DNA from: Triparma columacea
Taxonomy: Eukaryota; Sar; Bolidophyceae; Parmales; Triparmaceae
Length of the DNA: 64,000 nt
Reading direction: 5' to 3'
Assembly (NCBI GenBank): GCA_030267965.1
Contig: BRYA01000748.1
Coordinates: forward strand, 1-64,000
Under the pieces are notes generated by a model that searched no databases, was not told where the DNA came from, and saw only the letters and a list, made by a program, of their open reading frames with translations. Positions 9,001-46,913 of the stretch are shown here, one piece after another (within the stretch, counting starts at the first letter, position 1; the number at the start of each line of letters is the position of its first letter). Position numbers and translations under genes: made by a program.

Positions 9001-12000
9001 GGACGAAAGTAGTTTGACAGGTGTTGTTAAGAACGCCTGTCCTCCTCTCCTCGAAGTCGCGGGGTCCTTTTCTTTGAGAGTAGTCGTTCTTGACTTGATG
9101 ATCAACAAGGTATTTGTCAATCACATTGTGGAGGCTAGTGTTCATGGGGACGGTCTCGTCAACAACTGGGGGATAAATGGCTGTTGGTGGTCGGAGAGTG
9201 AAATGGGGTTGGTGGGGGGTCGAGGGGGGTCGAAGGGGTTAGAAGGTGAAGGTGAGGGTTAATGAGGGCATGCAAAGATACAAGCTGTCGACCCCCCCCT
9301 CATCGTCAATTGCTGCCTGTCCAACAGGTCCTCCAGACTGGCCTCCTTGTCGGCGGTTGCGTCCAAGACACCTTCCAAGTCAACCCTTCTCCCCTCTCCC
9401 CCTCTCCCCCTCTTCTCACCTTTCACGGCCTCCTCAGCCTCGTCGGTAACGAAACGATCCGCCTTGCACATACCTACGTTGACAGTGGGCTCCTCTACGT
9501 CCGAACTACCGTCCTCCCCAAACTCTGCAAGGAGCGAAGCAAATCACGATATGTTTTCATTAGTTTGCGTTACAGTCGCATCGGGACGGCAGCAGTGTTT
9601 TTTGAGGAAAATATCGAGGTGATTTAGCCTTGCTCCGTCATCATGGTTGTCATTATTCATGACGCAATTAAACTTCTCCTCAATGCTCACCTTCATAAAC
9701 GAGAATAATCCGCACTGCTGATCTACAATCTCCGTCGTCAAGAAGTGCCCGCCTGTCTCGTAAAAGGTCGCCATCATTATTAGCGAGACCCTCGCGTGCT
9801 GTCAGTGCCTTCGATTCCTTGTCATTCTTCTCTTGATCTGCGGGGAGAAAAGCAAGGAGCGAAGTAAATCACGTTTTGTTTTCATTAGTTTGCGTTACAG
9901 TCGAATCGGGTCAGCAGCAGTGCTTTTTTAAAGGAAGCCATCGGGGTGATCTTGCCTTGCTCTGTCATGGTTGTCATTATTCATGACGCACTTAAACTCT
10001 CCCTCGATGCTTACCTTCATAAACGAGAATAATCTGCACCGCTGATCTACAATCTTCGTCGTCAAGAAGTGGCAGCCTGTCCCCTGAAAGGTCGCCATCA
10101 TTATTACCGAGGTCGGCAACAGTCGCGTCATAAGCATCTCCCGTCGATGGTAAGTCTGATGCCTTGACAGTCTTGAAATTATGACCGTCCTTCAGCCCAT
10201 AAAGAAGCTGTTTGCAACCTGCGCGGTCGCCAAGTATCAGCTCCTCGCGCGAAAGCTCGATCTCCCCGTTGCTTAGATCGGCATAGACATCCTCTTGAGA
10301 ATATCTCGTCGAAAGCGCTCCGGAATCTTCCTCAACTTGCTTCAAGTCACAAGCACCGAGCAGCCAAGGAGACGGACTTTCGCCACTGCCATCGAAAAGA
10401 GCCAGCTCACCTCCTCGAAGTTCCCAACAATGATAGGTGTGGAGGGCAAGGGGCTTGGTGTGGCCACCTATCGTCGGGAGGGCCGTAAAGGCTAATTCAG
10501 TCTCGTCGTTTCGTGTTTTTGACAGAACTTTCGGCATTCCCAAACAACATCTGTGGTCGTGAAGTATGGAATTTCCTTCGAAAAGCTTGTCCATCTCCTC
10601 CTCGTCGAATATGTCGGAGGTATATCGGTCGGCCGTCGTCGAGAGTACTCCAGATGCCTTCCATTCCCACATGAGTGATGGTCCACCAGGAGTGTTAGGT
10701 TTCTTATCAACAGCGGCTCTATTCAGGACACCCTTCATGGAGCTTCCGTTCAGAATGTCTTCGTCGTCCTTCCTGTTCGTACCCGCGACGACCGAAGCAT
10801 CTTGGCCAATTGCAATGCCTTCGTCAGGAAGTAACACCCCTCCTTCCAAGAGTTCGAACTTTCTAACGTTGAATAGCTCGCAGAGCTTGACGGGTCCACG
10901 ATATGCCGTCAGCTTCGTACAGTGCTTGTCGTCCTTTTTATTATCTGTGAGGAGCAAAGCGAAGAGCGAAACAAATCGCGAACATTTTCATTAGTTGGGT
11001 TACAGTCACATCGGGACGGCAGCACAGTTCTATTTTGGGAAGAAATTGTGGGGGTGCTTATCTTGCCGCACTGTGTGATAGCTGTCGTTATCCATGCCGC
11101 ACTTGAACCTCTTACCTTTCTCAACAAGAATCAACCGCACTGCTCTACAATATTCGTCGTCAGGGGGTGTCAGCTGTTCCCTTAACAGCTCGTCGCGCGC
11201 TATATTAGGGTCTACATTGGTGTCCTTTGGAGCAGCGGCCGTCGAGATCGGATCTGACAGATTATACAGGACAGTGTTCCCCAAAATTCTTCTCCCCATA
11301 TGTGCCTTGGGACTGCTTGAAGGTTCCGAGTCTCCAGCTAGGCTGCTGGTACAATCGGGAGCCGAGCGATCTGAGCGATCTGAGATCGAGGCACCGAGAC
11401 CGTTCATATCTTCCTTCACGTTGCTATCAAGGCCCCCCATTCGACTAGTGCTATTGAGGGGGGTGCTCTTCCTCCTCGAGTACCTCTTCTTCTCCCCCGT
11501 CTCCGCCCAGAGAGGCATAATGTTGTGGTCTACAGTAAGGGTTCCACCCCTGCTAGCGACGTTTATCACCCCATTTTTCTGCGTGGTCTGCTCCTTGATT
11601 TCAAAGACCCTGTTGAAGTCTTTCTTGAGCGTGTTATTTGTGCACCCCCCCATCCAAGTTCTGTAGAAAGAAGTCATCATCTCATCATCGCTAACCCCGA
11701 AGAGGGGGGCGAGCGAATCCTTGGAAGTATTGAGTTGGCCCATCTTGTCTAGCGCGATGATGTAGTTTGTTATGCTCTGCAACGTTCCTTCGACCGTGTC
11801 GTTGTGCTGCGAGTGATTGAATCAGAAGGGAGGGGTTAATTAACAGGTGGATTGTTGATTAGAGAATTCTTGACGGTGCGTATCGCAGTCTCACCTGCTC
11901 AAGCTCATTATAGATGAAACTGAGGTCGCCATCATTATTACGCAGGTCGGCAACAGTCTCGCCATAAACATCTCCCGTCATTTGCAAGTCGGATGCTTTG

Positions 12001-13552: not shown

Positions 13553-16027
13553 TCAAGTACAACCCTTCTCCAACAAAGATATCTTTGAATCTTTGAACGT
13601 TTGAAGCACCTTACCTTGGAGAGAGAGTACCTCAACGCCGGACTCTTCACGGACCAGTGGCACCCAAGGTAGCGCGGAGCACTCAATTTTCTGGTAGGCA
13701 TTACCGTCTCCGACACTGGCGTCCCTCACTTTCTCGTGCTTGTGGTCCCAGTTGGCCTTAACACACGTCTGACGCCAATTTGCCCCAAGCCGAATCTGCA
13801 GCATAGCGTCGCCGTCATGTGGTGCGCTGACAACAAGTTTTCCGTACGGTCGCAAGGATGGCGGGGATAGAATCGAGAGTGGGTAGACGTTCCCCGCATA
13901 CTTAGCCTCAGCGGTTCGTAATTCCCACGCATGTGTAGCATTAGAGTCCAACCATCCCAAATCAACAAATGGCCAGTTATGGGTTTGGCCGTTTGCAACT
14001 CTAGGCATTTTTTCGTCCCACATCTTGGAATATAACCCATTGTACGACGGCTGGACTGTAAATCCGTCCGTGCTCAACGCCTTGATCACTGCTTCCCGGT
14101 CCTCGACCCAAAAATAGACATCCATATCGTCGTCCCACGGGATTCGTCCGTGGTGCAACAACGAGCCAATCAGGGTCCCACCATCAATGAAGTAGGCTAT
14201 GCCCGCTGACTCGCAAACCTCGTGGATGTGGCTTAACAGGCGTTCGGCTTTTTTGTCGTCTTCTGTTGTCATGATGTTGCGAAATTGCCGTGCTTTCTTG
14301 GCCGTACTTTTGATCTCGTCCATTGCCGCCACCGCTAGCGAATTATCCCCGGTGTGTACGACGTACGCCTCCTCGTGGGAAAATTCTTTCGCTACCTTCA
14401 TCGACAGCACAATATTATCCTCGAACTTCCAAACGATCGGCTTGCGTTGATCCCTATCCTTCTCATTCCACGTGCGAACGAGAACATTCAAAACTCCTTG
14501 GTCATTACATTCTGTTCTTCGTAATTCTTGGTTGAAAGTCTTTAAGAAGCGGAGCATCTCGCCCTGCGTTCCAAATATTGTTCCGGCGCATATCATGCTA
14601 TTTTCCTTGATCAACTCCCATATTTTGTTCCCATACGAAGAACACCCATGAATCCATCGTTTGTGCCACACGTCTATGGCCATGGGGTGATGCTCTGGCT
14701 CGGCAACGACATAAACACCATCATCTATGAGCTTGAACAAGTCGTCCTTGAACCAAATGTCTGTTCCGTCAACCAAGGCAACCTTCGCATCTGGAGACTC
14801 TTCTAGCAACTCATCTTCGTAACAGGCGAACCGTGTTGTTACGTATGGGGGCACCAACTTATCGCATCCAACGACCACAACTGAACCCATCCAATCGAAC
14901 GCAGTCTTTGTCTCGGCTACCACATCTGATGAAACGAACAGCTTTATTGTTGCGTCCTGTACGACTCGTCGCATGGTGTACACGTTGTTCTCAAGTGGCG
15001 GTCGTTTCCCTCCGTACGCCACGTATATAAGCTTGGCTGGAGATGGAGGTCGTTCTACGAATAAGTGGTGCACTCCATTCTCATATTCAGGACGACCACA
15101 AATCTCGTATTTCAACGAGTTTAGCCCATCCGTCTTCCATCGTGTGCTGCCACCACTCATTTTTTTCAACATCTGCAATGTCGTAGAGTACTGTTTCTTA
15201 GGGCTAACCCGTTTGGTGTGGTCTTCGTCGTGCCACTCACTGAACTGCCCCATGCCTTTCTTCGGGCGTCGAAGCAAACCAGACGGTGTGAGCAACCCGT
15301 TTGCCTGTAAACGAAAGAACAGATCGTCATCCTCGCCACCCCAACCATGGTAGTCGTTGGACATCCCATTTATCAGCTTCCAGTGCTTGGGGGATAAGGA
15401 GACAACTCCACCTGCGTAGCGGTCATACGGCAAGCCCCCATTGAATTGATCGTTCTCCGCACTGAGTTGTATTGGGGTTTCACAATCCTTGTAGTCCACG
15501 TAGTTCTTAGGGAAACGATCGACATCGTGCTGCACGATGCATTGAACCCCAGGTAAAGTCTTCATCACTTCCGTGATCCCCACATTTGTCAACCAACCCC
15601 TGTTGAACAGATTTGAATCGTGCTGCTCAATCCCCCAAATCGTCATGTTGACGTCAATGTGGTGCTCTTGCACGTACGTCGCCATGTACTCCTTAAATCG
15701 TCTCAGGTGGACTTCACGGTCACGATATGGGATAATGATGGCAATCTCAACCAACCTAGTTGTGGGCATACCGGTTGGGAGCAGGGGGACTGGGGGAGCT
15801 ATGCGGGGCAGAGCTGAGCTTTCGACCTCGCTTTCGACCTCGCTTTCGACCTCGCTTTCGACCTCGCGGAGGTTCTTGTACGAGTCGACAATAGAGTCGA
15901 CGTTGGAGTCACTGGTAGAGTGAAACATTTGTCTTGATAGCGAATTCAAAACCAGTGAATTGAAGTATAGGTTCAATGATACAACGCCGGCGAGCAGAAG
16001 AAGTGCACTCGTCCTTAGATGCGGCAT
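13553..16027 (-). CDS. Trimodular glycosyltransferase: B4GalT (GT7)-like, second GT-like, LicD-like
   Basis: 824 residues from ATG 16027. Residues 7-29 are a hydrophobic signal anchor, so a type II Golgi protein is likely. A short ESEV repeat (56-69) precedes a beta-1,4-galactosyltransferase-like domain with the metal-binding DVD (168-170) and the family signature GWGGEDDDLFFRL (228-240). A middle domain carries DGTDIWFKDD (420-429), a DxD-like site resembling PLOD/GT25-type glycosyltransferases. The C-terminal part has GGTLIGSLLHHGRIP followed by WDDDMDV (616-637), the LicD/fukutin-type phosphosugar-transfer motif. Three catalytic modules in one Golgi-type chain suggest stepwise assembly of one glycan. 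A GTAAG close to the C-terminus (near 13611-13617) could be a donor, so the last ~20 residues are uncertain. Confidence 0.85.
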   Translation of the reverse strand: MPHLRTSALLLLAGVVSLNLYFNSLVLNSLSRQMFHSTSDSNVDSIVDSYKNLREVESEVESEVESEVESSALPRIAPPVPLLPTGMPTTRLVEIAIIIPYRDREVHLRRFKEYMATYVQEHHIDVNMTIWGIEQHDSNLFNRGWLTNVGITEVMKTLPGVQCIVQHDVDRFPKNYVDYKDCETPIQLSAENDQFNGGLPYDRYAGGVVSLSPKHWKLINGMSNDYHGWGGEDDDLFFRLQANGLLTPSGLLRRPKKGMGQFSEWHDEDHTKRVSPKKQYSTTLQMLKKMSGGSTRWKTDGLNSLKYEICGRPEYENGVHHLFVERPPSPAKLIYVAYGGKRPPLENNVYTMRRVVQDATIKLFVSSDVVAETKTAFDWMGSVVVVGCDKLVPPYVTTRFACYEDELLEESPDAKVALVDGTDIWFKDDLFKLIDDGVYVVAEPEHHPMAIDVWHKRWIHGCSSYGNKIWELIKENSMICAGTIFGTQGEMLRFLKTFNQELRRTECNDQGVLNVLVRTWNEKDRDQRKPIVWKFEDNIVLSMKVAKEFSHEEAYVVHTGDNSLAVAAMDEIKSTAKKARQFRNIMTTEDDKKAERLLSHIHEVCESAGIAYFIDGGTLIGSLLHHGRIPWDDDMDVYFWVEDREAVIKALSTDGFTVQPSYNGLYSKMWDEKMPRVANGQTHNWPFVDLGWLDSNATHAWELRTAEAKYAGNVYPLSILSPPSLRPYGKLVVSAPHDGDAMLQIRLGANWRQTCVKANWDHKHEKVRDASVGDGNAYQKIECSALPWVPLVREESGVEVLSLQGKVLQTFKDSKISLLEKGCT

Positions 16028-42800: not shown

Positions 42801-43400
42801 TATTTTGGATTAGTGGTGAATGGCGAGGAGGGCTATGTTTTTATGAGGGTATTTGTTGCGCTTTGTTTTTGTGTGATAAGTCAGTTATTGGTGTTATCGT
42901 GGTGATTTGGTGTTTTTTGTGGGCGTAGATAGTCTTGTTGTTGAGAATTTGGATGTTTGATGAAATGTCCTGGAAATTGGGGAATTTGGGGAGAATTTCT
43001 TTGGTCTGGTTGGGTTTTGGGCATTCTTTTGCTTTTTTTCAGAGAAGCGTGTTTCGGACACCTTCGGCGGCGCTTGGACTGACAATAAAGTGCAGTGCGT
43101 CTAATTTGTAAAATGTCTTTCGCCCAATTTCATCAAATTAATTATCTTCTCAACACCTCTTTTTCTCCTGGGGCCTCCAATCCAGACACAATCTTCACTC
43201 TTCTTTTGGTAGCCTTTTCATCCCTTTTCAGGCACTCATTCGTACATACATACACACGCATACACACTAGATACTCATCATTGCACGTAATTGGTAACAA
43301 GATAGAGAAAACAAGGTGAGATTGAGGAAATATAATGGAGATGTGCATGACATCTCGCAGACAAATCCAGATTGGAGAATATTCAAAGGGTTGTTGCTTG

Positions 43401-43533
43401 TTTGTTCCGCTGATGTAAAAATACCACCATTTGTTGAAGGCTATGATATGCGACGTGCATTTCGGAGACACGCGCAATGATTAAACGCCAGCAAACGCGA
43501 AATGGCTGCCAAACGACCATACTGAGGAACAAA
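43401..43533 (+). ncRNA. Box C/D snoRNA-like element 1
   Basis: Terminal stem TTTGTTCC (43401-43408) pairs with GGAACAAA (43526-43533). Box C TGATGTA at 43411-43417, box D CTGA at 43522-43525. It contains the conserved core (GATATGCGACGTGC to GACACGCGC) and ends 46 nt before exon 2. Confidence 0.72.
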
Positions 43534-43699
43534 CACATGACAACAACAACAACAACAAGTGTGACAAGGACGGTAACAGCGACGCATTACACAGCCCTAA
43601 CACAAACCACATTCGCCCTTCGCAATGGCTGACACTATGGAACATAGGTAAGATGAGAACAGGGAAAGGAGATGGAGAGAGGTCTTGTTTTGTTGTGGA

Positions 43700-43830
43700 C
43701 GTTTCGCTGATGTAAATTTACCACGAGCTTTGGCATGGTATGATATGCGACGTGCATTTCGGAGACACGCGCAATGATATAACGCCAGCAATAGATAAAT
43801 GGCTGCCAAACGACCATACTGAGGAACAAA
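43700..43830 (+). ncRNA. Box C/D snoRNA-like element 2
   Basis: Box C TGATGTA at 43708-43714 and box D CTGA at 43819-43822. The 5' stem arm is GTTTC rather than GTTCC, which still pairs with GGAAC through one G-U. The conserved core and the CGACCATA segment before box D are intact. Confidence 0.7.
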
Positions 43831-44030
43831 CACATGAAAACAACAAGCTGTAGCAGGTTGACACTTTTCCATCCTGCGCAAGAGTGACCTAACACCAATC
43901 TCCGATCGCACTCGATATCCGTCGTTATTCTGCCCTCCTCGCAAACACATCCGATGATGCAGGTAAGGAAGGAAGGAAAGGAAGGAAGTGCAGTGTGGTA
44001 TCGCAAAGTTGTTGGAGACGTTGAATGTTG

Positions 44031-44159
44031 TTTGTTCCGCTGATGTAAATATACCACAAGTAGCAGGCTTATGATATGCGACGTGCATTTCGGAGACACG
44101 CGCTATGATTAAACGCCAGTTGGCGAAATGGCTGCCAAACGACCATACTGAGGAACAAA
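44031..44159 (+). ncRNA. Box C/D snoRNA-like element 3
   Basis: Stem TTTGTTCC (44031-44038) with GGAACAAA (44152-44159); box C TGATGTA at 44041-44047; box D CTGA at 44148-44151. The possible C'-type motif here reads ATGATTAA. Confidence 0.72.
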
Positions 44160-44358
44160 CACAACCCAATGACAATCTGTTATTACTTGACAATTTACCT
44201 CCTGTTTCCTGTCGAAGAGTCGCCTAACACCAATGTTCAATCACACTCGATATCCGCTATCCCCCCTCTCCTCCCACACACACACACACATTCGACGAAG
44301 CAGGTAAGGAAGGAGAGAAGGAGAGGTATCACAAAGTAGTTTGAGACGTTAAATGTTA

Positions 44359-44489
44359 TTTGTTCCGCTGATGTAGATAACCCACAAGCTCGTATGTCAT
44401 ATGATATGCGACGTGCATTTCGGAGACACGCGCAATGATATAACGCCAGTATCATAAATGGCTGCCAAACAACCATACTGAGGAACAAA
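44359..44489 (+). ncRNA. Box C/D snoRNA-like element 4
   Basis: Stem TTTGTTCC (44359-44366) with GGAACAAA (44482-44489); box C TGATGTA at 44369-44375; box D CTGA at 44478-44481. The segment before box D is CAACCATA instead of CGACCATA, a single change relative to the other five. Confidence 0.7.
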
Positions 44490-44685
44490 CACATGAAAAC
44501 AAGAAGCTGTAGCAGGTTGACACTTACTTTTCCATCCTGTGCAAGAGTGACCTAACACCAATCTTCAATCGCACTCGATATCCGTCGTTATTCTGCCCTC
44601 CTCGCAAACACATCCGATGATGCAGGTAAGGAAGGAAGGAAAAGAAGAAGAGGTATTGCAAAGTCTTTGAGATGTTGAATGTTGT

Positions 44686-44816
44686 TTGTTCCGCTGATGT
44701 AAATATACCAACGTAAAGGTAGATATGATATGCGACGTGCATTTCGGAGACACGCGCTATGATTAAACGCCAGCAATTAGTAAATGGCTGCCAAACGACC
44801 ATACTGAGGAACAAAC
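44686..44816 (+). ncRNA. Box C/D snoRNA-like element 5
   Basis: Stem TTTGTTCC (44686-44693) with GGAACAAA (44809-44816); box C TGATGTA at 44696-44702; box D CTGA at 44805-44808. It ends 41 nt before the next exon. Confidence 0.72.
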
Positions 44817-44975
44817 AACAACAACAACAACAACAAGTGTGACAAGGACGGTAACAGCGACGCATTACACATCCCTAACACAATACACATTCGCCCTTCG
44901 CAACGGTTGCACTATGGAACATAGGTAAGATGAGAACAGGGAAAGGAGATGGAGAGGTCTTGTTTTGTTGTGGAT

Positions 44976-45102
44976 GTTCCGATGATGTAAATATACCACA
45001 ATCCAGCTTTTTATATGATATGCGACGTGCATTTCGGAGACACGCGCTATGATTTAACGCCAGCAAAGGCTAAATGGCTGCCAAACGACCATACTGAGGA
45101 AC
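44976..45102 (+). ncRNA. Box C/D snoRNA-like element 6
   Basis: Shorter stem GTTCC (44976-44980) with GGAAC (45098-45102); box C TGATGTA at 44983-44989, preceded by GA rather than GC; box D CTGA at 45094-45097. Core and CGACCATA segment are intact. Confidence 0.7.
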
Positions 45103-45246
45103 AAACAACAAAAACAACAACAAGAAGTGTGACAAGGACGATAACAGCGACGCGTTACACTTCATTTGTTGAGATCCTCTTTAAATCCTCTCTTTAAGCC
45201 TTTACGACATCATCTTACACCAACTCCCACTCACTTAAATAGCATT

Positions 45247-46913
45247 ATGGAGTCAACGCATCATCCTATCCATCATCCTATCCATATAGCAACTGCTGGT
45301 GTATTCCTTGTGTTATCTATCGTAACACTTTCTCTTCAAAAGTCTAAAACTAGTACAAATGGCGCTATGAATGGAGCTACAAATGGACCTACAAGCGTAA
45401 CCACAAACTCAAACACATCCACGTACGCATACAGCCCTTACAAAGGAAGAACCTCTGTGTCTCCAGCATCATTAACATACTCCACTTCCATCAACAGTGG
45501 AACATCAGAGCCAGCAAACGTGGTGAGGATTGGGTAGGATTGGAGAGGATTGGAGAGAGGAGAGGAGGGAAGGAGAAGGGAAAGAAAGTGGAATGAATGG
45601 ACTGAAATAGAGGAACCCCAAACATACACCACTTACTCTATTCCACATACTTACTCTACTCCACATACTATCACCACTCCACATACTTACACACACACCG
45701 TCCCCTACTCCTTCCTCCCCCCCCCAACCCACACACACACCCGCAGTCCCAGTCACTCAACTCAATACACACAGCAGACTCAGAAGCCTCCAATGCCGCA
45801 TCCACCACCAACAACGGAAGCGGCAGCAACAACGACCTCGATGCGACCCAACAGCACACAAACCGCACGCCCAGCCCCTTCAATCCCATCCCAGTAACCA
45901 AAATGCCCTCCTTCGTATCCTCCTTCTTCTCCCCCAAAGCTGCTCCCCCCAACCGCACCCACTCCACCTCCTCCACCACCTCCTCCTCTCCCCTCTCCCC
46001 CGCTGGTTCCACCTCCAGCGCCTCTAACCGCACAGTGTTCCTCCGTCTCCTATCCCTCTCCCTCTTCCTCCGTTCCCTCTCTATCCTCCTCCTCTCCTTC
46101 GTACCCCCCTTATCCCCACCCTCGCTTCTATCAACCCTCCAAACCAACGTCTCCCTTACAACCTTCATAAGGACAGCCCCGGACATTACCTTCTACTGGT
46201 GCTACAGGGTCCTACTAAACCTAACCTACAGGTCCGTCACCTACGGTATCTCAGACAGTCCCACCTCAAGTGTAATGATAAAGCTCTCCACATCATTAAC
46301 ATTAACAATCCTCTACCTCTCAACATCCCTCCTCCCAACAATCCTCCACCTCCCCCCTACCCCTATAACCGTAGCTGTCCCAACGGGTATACTAGTAATA
46401 ACGTACTTGAACTTATGCACGAGCACATGGCAGGTTATAAAACTGGTTAAAACCAACATACCTAACACACGCAACAACACATCAGACCCCGAAACACCGG
46501 TCACTGATTTAAAACAAAGGCTAACATTAACGTTATCCGTAGTTCTAATCGTATTAATAGTCCAAGCGGTGGATTTCGTGACTGCTGTTCTAGCTGACGT
46601 ATCTGGGGAGAATGGAGGTGCGTTAAAGGTAGGACCTAGGTGGTTTGATGTTGTTGTTTATTACGTGACTGAGTTAGTACCTACTATCGTCGTTGTTATT
46701 ACAATGAGGGGTAGAGGGAAAAGGAGGAGGAGGGAGGGGGGGAGTAGGAGAGGTAGTAAAGATAGGAGTGGGGATAATCATTTAATGCAGCAAAGGACTA
46801 GAAGCGTGGACAGACATAGTGGGGGGAACCATGCTAATGTTATCATGGGGGTTTATGGGGCTATGGACGAAACTAAGGGACTTCTGGAGGGTGGAGGGAA
46901 CATTAAGGTGTAA
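45247..46913 (+). CDS. THH1/TOM1/TOM3-like multipass membrane protein
   Basis: Exons 45247-45522 and 45747-46913 join in phase 0 to 480 residues. A first hydrophobic helix (HIATAGVFLVLSIVTLSL) is in exon 1; a Ser/Thr/Asn-rich loop follows; six more hydrophobic segments lie in exon 2. The last one has the form YYVTELVPTIVVVITMR followed by a basic KRRRR tail, like the closing YY-L-E-LP--LVLFILR block of plant THH1/TOM1/TOM3 proteins. The overall seven-segment layout fits that family, which is of unclear cellular role. Other seven-helix proteins remain possible. Its 5' leader may include the snoRNA array. Confidence 0.55.

Follow-up and report, generated by a model that had tools for sequence, protein, structure and literature searches.

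The window analyzed here, a stretch of 64,000 nucleotides (nt) of Triparma columacea contig BRYA01000748.1 (contig C620 in our labelling), carries on its forward strand six copies of a small-RNA-like element between positions 43402 and 45104, and its sequence indicates that the whole array is probably one compound intron directly before the start codon of a host protein gene. An aldehyde dehydrogenase encoded in the window is 80% identical to proteins of Triparma strigata and Tetraparma gracilis and 76% to one of Triparma retinervis, its best match being an ENA protein at 97%; this makes a parmalean (Bolidophyceae) origin very likely. A preliminary description of this DNA had proposed six paralogous box C/D small nucleolar RNAs (snoRNAs) of ~130 nt, one per intron. 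Our results bore out this anatomy: there are six copies of 127-131 nt, each closed by a stem of GTTCC and GGAAC, with CTGATGT or ATGATGT (box C-like) adjoining the 5' arm and CTGA (box D) adjoining the 3' arm; a C to T substitution in the stem of copy 2 retains pairing as G-U; and the box C/D-type organization, the intron location and the single element per intron all hold. What had been missed is that two hypervariable segments, HVS1 (~12 nt) and HVS2 (5 nt), lie within every copy. We refer to these segments as addresses.

A search of the genome (37.85 Mb in 789 contigs, given C-numbers as labels below) found the 20-nt core of the element at 373 places with 3 mismatches or fewer (212 forward, 161 reverse) and the reversed pattern, used as a control, at none, showing that the conservation noted for this core extends beyond the window. 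At least 96 contigs bear the core among the places listed. The longest array that was read, on contig C66, comprises 41 copies at the same threshold, and because its final copy lies less than 200 bases from the contig end, the genome copy number is a lower bound. All statistics below rest on 191 distinct copies from 42 contigs, with 4 or fewer mismatches to the core, or on subsets of these. The parser, which accepted only copies nearly matching both the core and a segment terminated by box D, kept 181 of the 191 copies and dropped 10, some of them truncated (C58:16741 and C58:19095). These two, together with C117:46047 and C104:27167, are truncated or chimeric, miss part of the element and are possibly dead copies.

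Analysis of column variability placed HVS1 just upstream of box D'. In the 110 copies with modal spacing, the 12 positions before TATGATATG stood at 1.84-2.00 bits of entropy and the TAT at 0-0.25 bits. Results for all 181 copies were similar, with 1.9-2.0 bits in the 12 columns of HVS1 and 0-0.3 in the downstream TAT and core; columns 5' of HVS1 stood at 0.7-1.4 bits, at least partly from length differences. For HVS2, the 5 positions between CAA and AAA stood at 1.9-2.0 bits and their direct neighbours at 0-0.1 (144 copies); its loop was shorter in 36 and longer in 1 of the parsed copies. The length of HVS1, measured in 114 copies in which both anchors matched, was 12 nt in 83, 11 nt in 18, 13 nt in 8, 10 nt in 4 and 14 nt in 1. 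The 181 parsed copies contained 179 distinct HVS1 sequences, whose pairwise distances matched the expectation from column composition, and only 3 of 16290 pairs differed at 2 or fewer of the 12 positions.

The addresses are different even between copies with closely similar surroundings. In 117 nearest-neighbour pairs whose flanks shared 85% or more of their letters (mean 91.3%), 29.5 of 30 scaffold letters agreed, as against 3.43 of 12 in HVS1, where chance gives 3.28, and 1.18 of 5 in HVS2. Likewise, among 78 pairs picked by shared flank words, with flanks 90-98% identical, HVS1 was identical at 6 or fewer of 12 letters in 76, and the pair with the most similar flanks (98.1% over 324 letters) agreed at 3 of 12 HVS1 letters. 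As an account of HVS1, neutral loops or free spacers were rejected, since this segment is randomised where the flanks are near-identical. New addresses seem, from these comparisons, to appear whole; selection on old guides with homogenised flanks and replacement at birth are two routes to this pattern that sister species are needed to tell apart.

Two pairs, on contigs C66 and C87, have the same 17 address letters in spite of differing introns. The introns of the C66 pair are identical at 108/117 letters upstream and 183/201 downstream, and no letter of the element differs from one stem arm to the other, so that it may have been copied whole. The introns of the C87 pair are identical at 91/103 and 121/150 aligned letters, with downstream halves of different types, and the element differs at 5/126 letters, none of them in the addresses; this pair would weigh against a hypermutable window, though not strongly, as the chance that five changes all fall outside 17 of 126 letters is about one half. 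A third pair of neighbouring copies (C769:42146 and 42471) shares 11 of 12 HVS1 letters and has different HVS2 sequences, showing that the two addresses are separable. Furthermore, neighbouring positions within the addresses were correlated (mean mutual-information z at lag 1 of 2.0 for HVS1 and 2.4 for HVS2, with longer lags at 0.56 or less), and address word usage fitted the genome sequence that was read better than 300/300 column shuffles, 300/300 within-guide shuffles and its own reversal. This fit suggests native sequence or a native mutation bias.

The constant scaffold consists, in order, of the closing stem, boxes C and D', a hairpin of 7 bp with a single bulge, and boxes C' and D. The closing stem was readable in 179 of the 181 parsed copies, and its first five pairs were formed in 98-100%. 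Box C was AUGAAGA in 73/179 copies and CUGAUGU in 70/179, with variants elsewhere; D' was AUGA inside TATGATAT (161/181 copies); C', 3' of the 7-bp hairpin, was ATGAT[TA] in nearly all copies; and box D was CTGA in 180/181 D-region strings, a figure that is partly by construction since the parser needed a near-match there. HVS2 lies between C' and D in the loop of a hairpin formed by GCCA and TGGC, the stem being GCC with GGC in 32/181 copies. Box C/D RNAs carry an antisense element directly upstream of D', and the 12-nt address occupies this position. One fibrillarin gene match was found in the genome. With box D, a terminal stem, internal C' and D' boxes and an intronic location at a near-fixed distance from the branch point, we file the family as a putative variant of the box C/D-type guide RNA, its membership being unproven.

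Analysis of the sequence between copies showed that the arrays are chains of intron-like units (a slash marks a splice junction below). In 137 of 141 stretches between neighbouring copies, the form [CTA]AG/GT[AG][AG]G was present with no exon between, exactly once in 135 of them, and it was nearly always [CT]AG/GTAAG, a zero-length exon. A CTAAC branch point followed box D at a minimum of 50, a median of 69 and a maximum of 79 nt, with 135/136 distances at 60-79 nt; it was absent from 3 of 139 copies having both box D and a junction. PMC8162545 gives ~50 nt upstream of the branch point as the optimum for assembly of the C/D ribonucleoprotein (RNP), and the array junctions match the consensus for zero-nucleotide recursive splice sites, (Y)nNCAG/GTAAGT, as quoted in PMC5126111.

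These results required the intron structure of the preliminary description to be redrawn. Box D, which had been placed 49-66 nt before the 3' splice site, lies, with the acceptors adopted in this analysis, 117-152 nt before it in copies 1-5 and 106-194 nt before it across 136 copies, with a median of 132.5 nt. What had been taken for short host exons are 3' intron ends holding the branch point and acceptor tract. Similarly, in place of a non-coding host of the UHG/GAS5 type, there is an exonless intron chain, apparently upstream of a protein-coding open reading frame (ORF), and single copies lie in introns of protein genes; a non-coding host with short exons was rejected on the basis of the AG/GT junction fusions and the protein-gene introns.

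Many of the copies on contigs with few copies were found, when read by eye, inside introns of coding genes. In-silico splicing gave output for 23 copies, from which eight with plausible sites were hand-picked for Pfam comparison. A Pfam match was obtained in 7 of the 8 spliced hosts, and in 6/8 the domain crossed the predicted junction: molybdopterin oxidoreductase, PALP, aldo-keto reductase, short-chain dehydrogenase and DNA polymerase subunit B domains did so, as did a chlorophyll-binding domain, by only ~3 residues. The aldo-keto reductase host (contig C45) has an intron terminating in ...ACGTAG, and this terminus is seen again in the arrays, followed there by GTAAG. On contig C13 the intron end, read by eye, is GACGATGCAG, followed by coding sequence; automated splicing favoured a later acceptor. 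The introns around the element fall into recurring 5' and 3' types, which are combined differently in at least 22/181 copies (class II downstream uncounted), and this suggests recombination within the element.

The features of the window are collected in the table. In intron unit 6, neither CTAAC within 100 nt of box D nor AG/GTAAG was found. The host gene probably has two coding exons, a model that combines the ORF with an exon read by eye. Elsewhere, on contig C175 (locus L041), two arrays at 10251-11354 (+) and 14366-15581 (-) lie on opposite strands within 6 kb.

Table. Predicted features of the intron array and its likely host gene in the window. A slash marks a splice junction; boxes are given by their first and last positions.
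Feature	Position	Strand	Details
Compound intron, six head-to-tail intron units	43316..45242	+	GTGAG 5' splice site at 43316; AG/GTAAG junctions; 3' acceptor AAATAG/CATTATGG at 45242, predicted by eye
Intron unit 1	43316..43647	+	CTAAC branch-point A 43600; end CATAG/GTAAG
Guide-RNA element 1	43402..43532	+	C 43410-43416; D' 43443-43446; C' 43477-43483; D 43522-43525
Addresses of element 1	43430..43441; 43495..43499	+	HVS1 (12 nt); HVS2 (5 nt)
Intron unit 2	43648..43962	+	branch-point A 43892; end GATGCAG/GTAAG
Guide-RNA element 2	43699..43829	+	C 43707-43713; D' 43740-43743; C' 43774-43780; D 43819-43822
Addresses of element 2	43727..43738; 43792..43796	+	HVS1; HVS2
Intron unit 3	43963..44303	+	branch-point A 44227; end GAAGCAG/GTAAG
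Guide-RNA element 3	44032..44158	+	C 44040-44046; D' 44071-44074; C' 44105-44111; D 44148-44151
Addresses of element 3	44058..44069; 44121..44125	+	HVS1; HVS2 (short-loop form)
Intron unit 4	44304..44625	+	branch-point A 44555; end GATGCAG/GTAAG
Guide-RNA element 4	44360..44488	+	C 44368-44374; D' 44401-44404; C' 44435-44441; D 44478-44481
Addresses of element 4	44388..44399; 44451..44455	+	HVS1; HVS2 (short-loop form)
Intron unit 5	44626..44924	+	branch-point A 44878; end CATAG/GTAAG
Guide-RNA element 5	44686..44814	+	C 44694-44700; D' 44725-44728; C' 44759-44765; D 44804-44807
Addresses of element 5	44712..44723; 44777..44781	+	HVS1; HVS2
Intron unit 6	44925..45242	+	acceptor predicted only
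Guide-RNA element 6	44974..45104	+	C 44982-44988; D' 45015-45018; C' 45049-45055; D 45094-45097
Addresses of element 6	45002..45013; 45067..45071	+	HVS1; HVS2
Likely host protein gene	45247..46913	+	ORF 45903-46913 plus in-frame ATG exon at 45247 (by eye)

The explanation that we favour, and to which we give slightly better than an even chance, is that these copies are members of one very large, intron-encoded family of box C/D-type guide RNAs with private addresses, which would be freed by ordinary and recursive splicing. According to this explanation, each intron would be excised, in the arrays by recursive splicing, and an RNP would assemble at the near-fixed distance before the branch point. 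The 12-nt address of the trimmed RNA would then base-pair with its own endogenous RNA target, the 5-nt address perhaps serving as a second contact with that target, and pairing would most likely direct 2'-O-methylation or mask the target. The constant parts of the element point to one RNP and the private parts to many partners. A stronger form, in which the alga possesses a programmable eukaryotic guide repertoire of several hundred RNAs with private bipartite (12 + 5 nt) addresses, new copies gaining wholly new addresses and recursive splicing serving mass production, is put forward tentatively, as we are more inclined to doubt it than to accept it.

Several observations weigh against the favoured explanation. 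The main forms of box C deviate by 1-2 letters from RUGAUGA, and D' is AUGA instead of CUGA. The terminal stem barely covaries (7.59 versus a shuffled mean of 7.34 and maximum of 7.57 in 300 shuffles); since the stem is near-invariant, it can lend little covariation support. Single-sequence folds of six copies were modest, with z from -0.38 to -2.63, and Rfam gave 0 matches over the gathering cut-off in the 64-kb window, a loose threshold adding weak matches far under the cut-off. Retention of addresses after duplication rests on the two pairs described above, one of them an entirely identical element. The searches for targets point in the same direction. Complements in cis, sought within 3 kb on the sense strand since each address matches itself on the antisense one, averaged 6.95 versus 6.81-6.94 in five shuffles, the longest being 10, and address 10-mers occurred 347 times in the ~300 kb that were read versus a mean of 301 (shuffles 195-445), which is no clear excess. 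Bipartite genome matches, sought for two of the addresses in one order and with a gap of 0-30, numbered 0 in each search, as did the controls. When the addresses were compared with 2197 nt of conserved ribosomal RNA (rRNA), a provisional reference sequence and not the alga's own, 3/181 reached 10 or more Watson-Crick pairs versus 0, 0, 2 and 1 in four shuffles. Finally, a test for targets on the sense strand of messenger RNA was dropped, although on an initial look it had given 32.5, as compared with 30.9 for words that are truly sense and -2.3 for non-coding sequence: the score of 31.7 bits compared with 34.3 for reversed letters and was reached by 8/300 column shuffles and 13/100 within-guide shuffles.

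Other searches concerned the partners and origin of the addresses. The plain 12-mer of one address was found at 4 places besides its own two copies, with ~4-5 expected by arithmetic and 0 for the reversed control; one of the 4 places falls within the sequence that was read. Pairing between HVS1 and HVS2 was rejected, their complementarity (2.26) being no higher than that of shuffled sequences (2.29). A viral or prokaryotic origin was also rejected, as neither IMG/VR nor the prokaryote contigs contain an exact copy of a 23-nt core, in searches that may omit very near records; one element compared with phage records gave no match.

An alternative is that the introns are introner-like mobile elements, in which the intron is the spreading unit and the core aids its spread or splicing, with variable windows that are targetless tags or spacers. 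Whole introns of few recurring types are indeed found at many places, some of them in coding genes, their 5' and 3' types are combined differently as described above, and introners are known from the stramenopile Aureococcus (PMC7789003). However, many singletons, read by eye, share the ~130-nt element alone and not the intron, and free spacers should diverge like their flanks, whereas HVS1 is randomised beside flanks that are 90-98% identical. The C87 pair, with 5 changes in the scaffold and 0 in its 17 address letters, adds an argument of no great strength on the same side. We regard mobile introns with targetless windows as unlikely, if a serious contender. A quite improbable alternative, in our estimate, is that the elements are guide RNAs of another RNP that merely resemble the box C/D type and whose addresses recognise foreign or selfish nucleic acid, as an immune repertoire. 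It would suit a large, diversified library on a near-invariant scaffold and a genome in which a six-frame search for the Piwi domain (PF02171) gave no match, by a method that gave a match in 1 of 14 control genomes. However, the four boxes, like the branch-point spacing, are in line with a C/D RNA, and in word usage the addresses resemble the genome of the alga itself.

The view of the preliminary description, scaled up, would be that these are ordinary clustered C/D snoRNA paralogs guiding methylation of rRNA. The box anatomy, the intron position and the single fibrillarin gene are compatible with it. In addition, CGACCATACT, which lies in the constant stretch leading up to box D (for example at 43500-43525), is a 10-nt complement of AGTATGGTCG in a provisional 18S rRNA sequence, a match that was equalled by 3/200 shuffles and has two of its ten letters in box D; and, with G-U pairs allowed, 77/181 addresses reached 10 pairs with the reference rRNA versus 62-74 in four shuffles. 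However, true rRNA guides should reach 10 Watson-Crick pairs in large numbers, and only the 3 addresses noted above did so. Moreover, the family, with 373 members, is nearly three times as large as the snoRNA set reported for Ostreococcus tauri, which comprises 131 RNAs in three classes (PMC7671301). The addresses probably have targets other than conserved rRNA, as far as the ~2.2 kb of provisional rRNA sequence covers it, and we hold guidance of rRNA methylation by ordinary paralogs to be very doubtful. The further claim that this could be a new snoRNA family stands as to its absence from Rfam and falls short as to scale, with at least 373 core copies and an address of its own in nearly every one of the 181 parsed.

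Returning to a guide-RNA family with private addresses, its properties can be set beside those of known systems. In the SNORD115 and SNORD116 clusters there is one snoRNA per intron. Paralogs of canonical C/D snoRNAs normally share their guide, whereas in the alga's family it is the guide position that differs between copies. Arrays of clustered regularly interspaced short palindromic repeats (CRISPR) are alike in having a constant unit and a unique address per unit in an array; this is an analogy only, since the alga's units are eukaryotic, intronic and, by prediction, spliced, and are not known to have a related protein or mechanism. The boxes, the closing stem and the near-fixed branch-point spacing are shared with canonical intron-encoded box C/D snoRNAs (PMC8162545). 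The SNORD115 and SNORD116 clusters of the Prader-Willi locus (PMC8162545) likewise consist of C/D RNAs encoded in introns in tandem and orphan as to rRNA targets; these differ in lying in introns of spliced, exon-bearing host transcripts, whereas the alga's units are exonless, occupy many loci and have D' addresses that are specific to the copy. The zero-nucleotide recursive splice sites of PMC5126111 are alike in having CAG/GTAAG without an exon between, but the known ones subdivide long introns, whereas the alga's delimit tandem units of ~300 nt with one RNA element each; the word snoRNA is absent from the main text of that paper. Introner elements of Micromonas, Aureococcus and Amoebophrya (PMC7789003) are also repeated introns dispersed in protein genes, but those of the alga contain a conserved gene that resembles a guide RNA and has private addresses. 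Among the matches listed for open-licence PMC papers, as judged by titles and abstract openings, there was no hypervariable intronic snoRNA family and no snoRNA-bearing recursive array, and the genome paper on Parmales (PMC10328945) uses neither the word snoRNA nor the word intron in its main text.

If the addresses are guides, T. columacea would have, in this family, nearly three times the whole snoRNA set of Ostreococcus tauri, probably aimed off conserved rRNA. The targets of orphan C/D RNAs would then become testable, as hundreds of addresses could be compared with mapped 2'-O-methyl sites. The arrays, in turn, predict recursive splicing as a route to many snoRNA-like RNAs without exons. 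Should the programmable repertoire prove true, it would amount to an address book for the whole genome, used to modify or silence RNA, in a lineage without a detected Piwi-domain protein.

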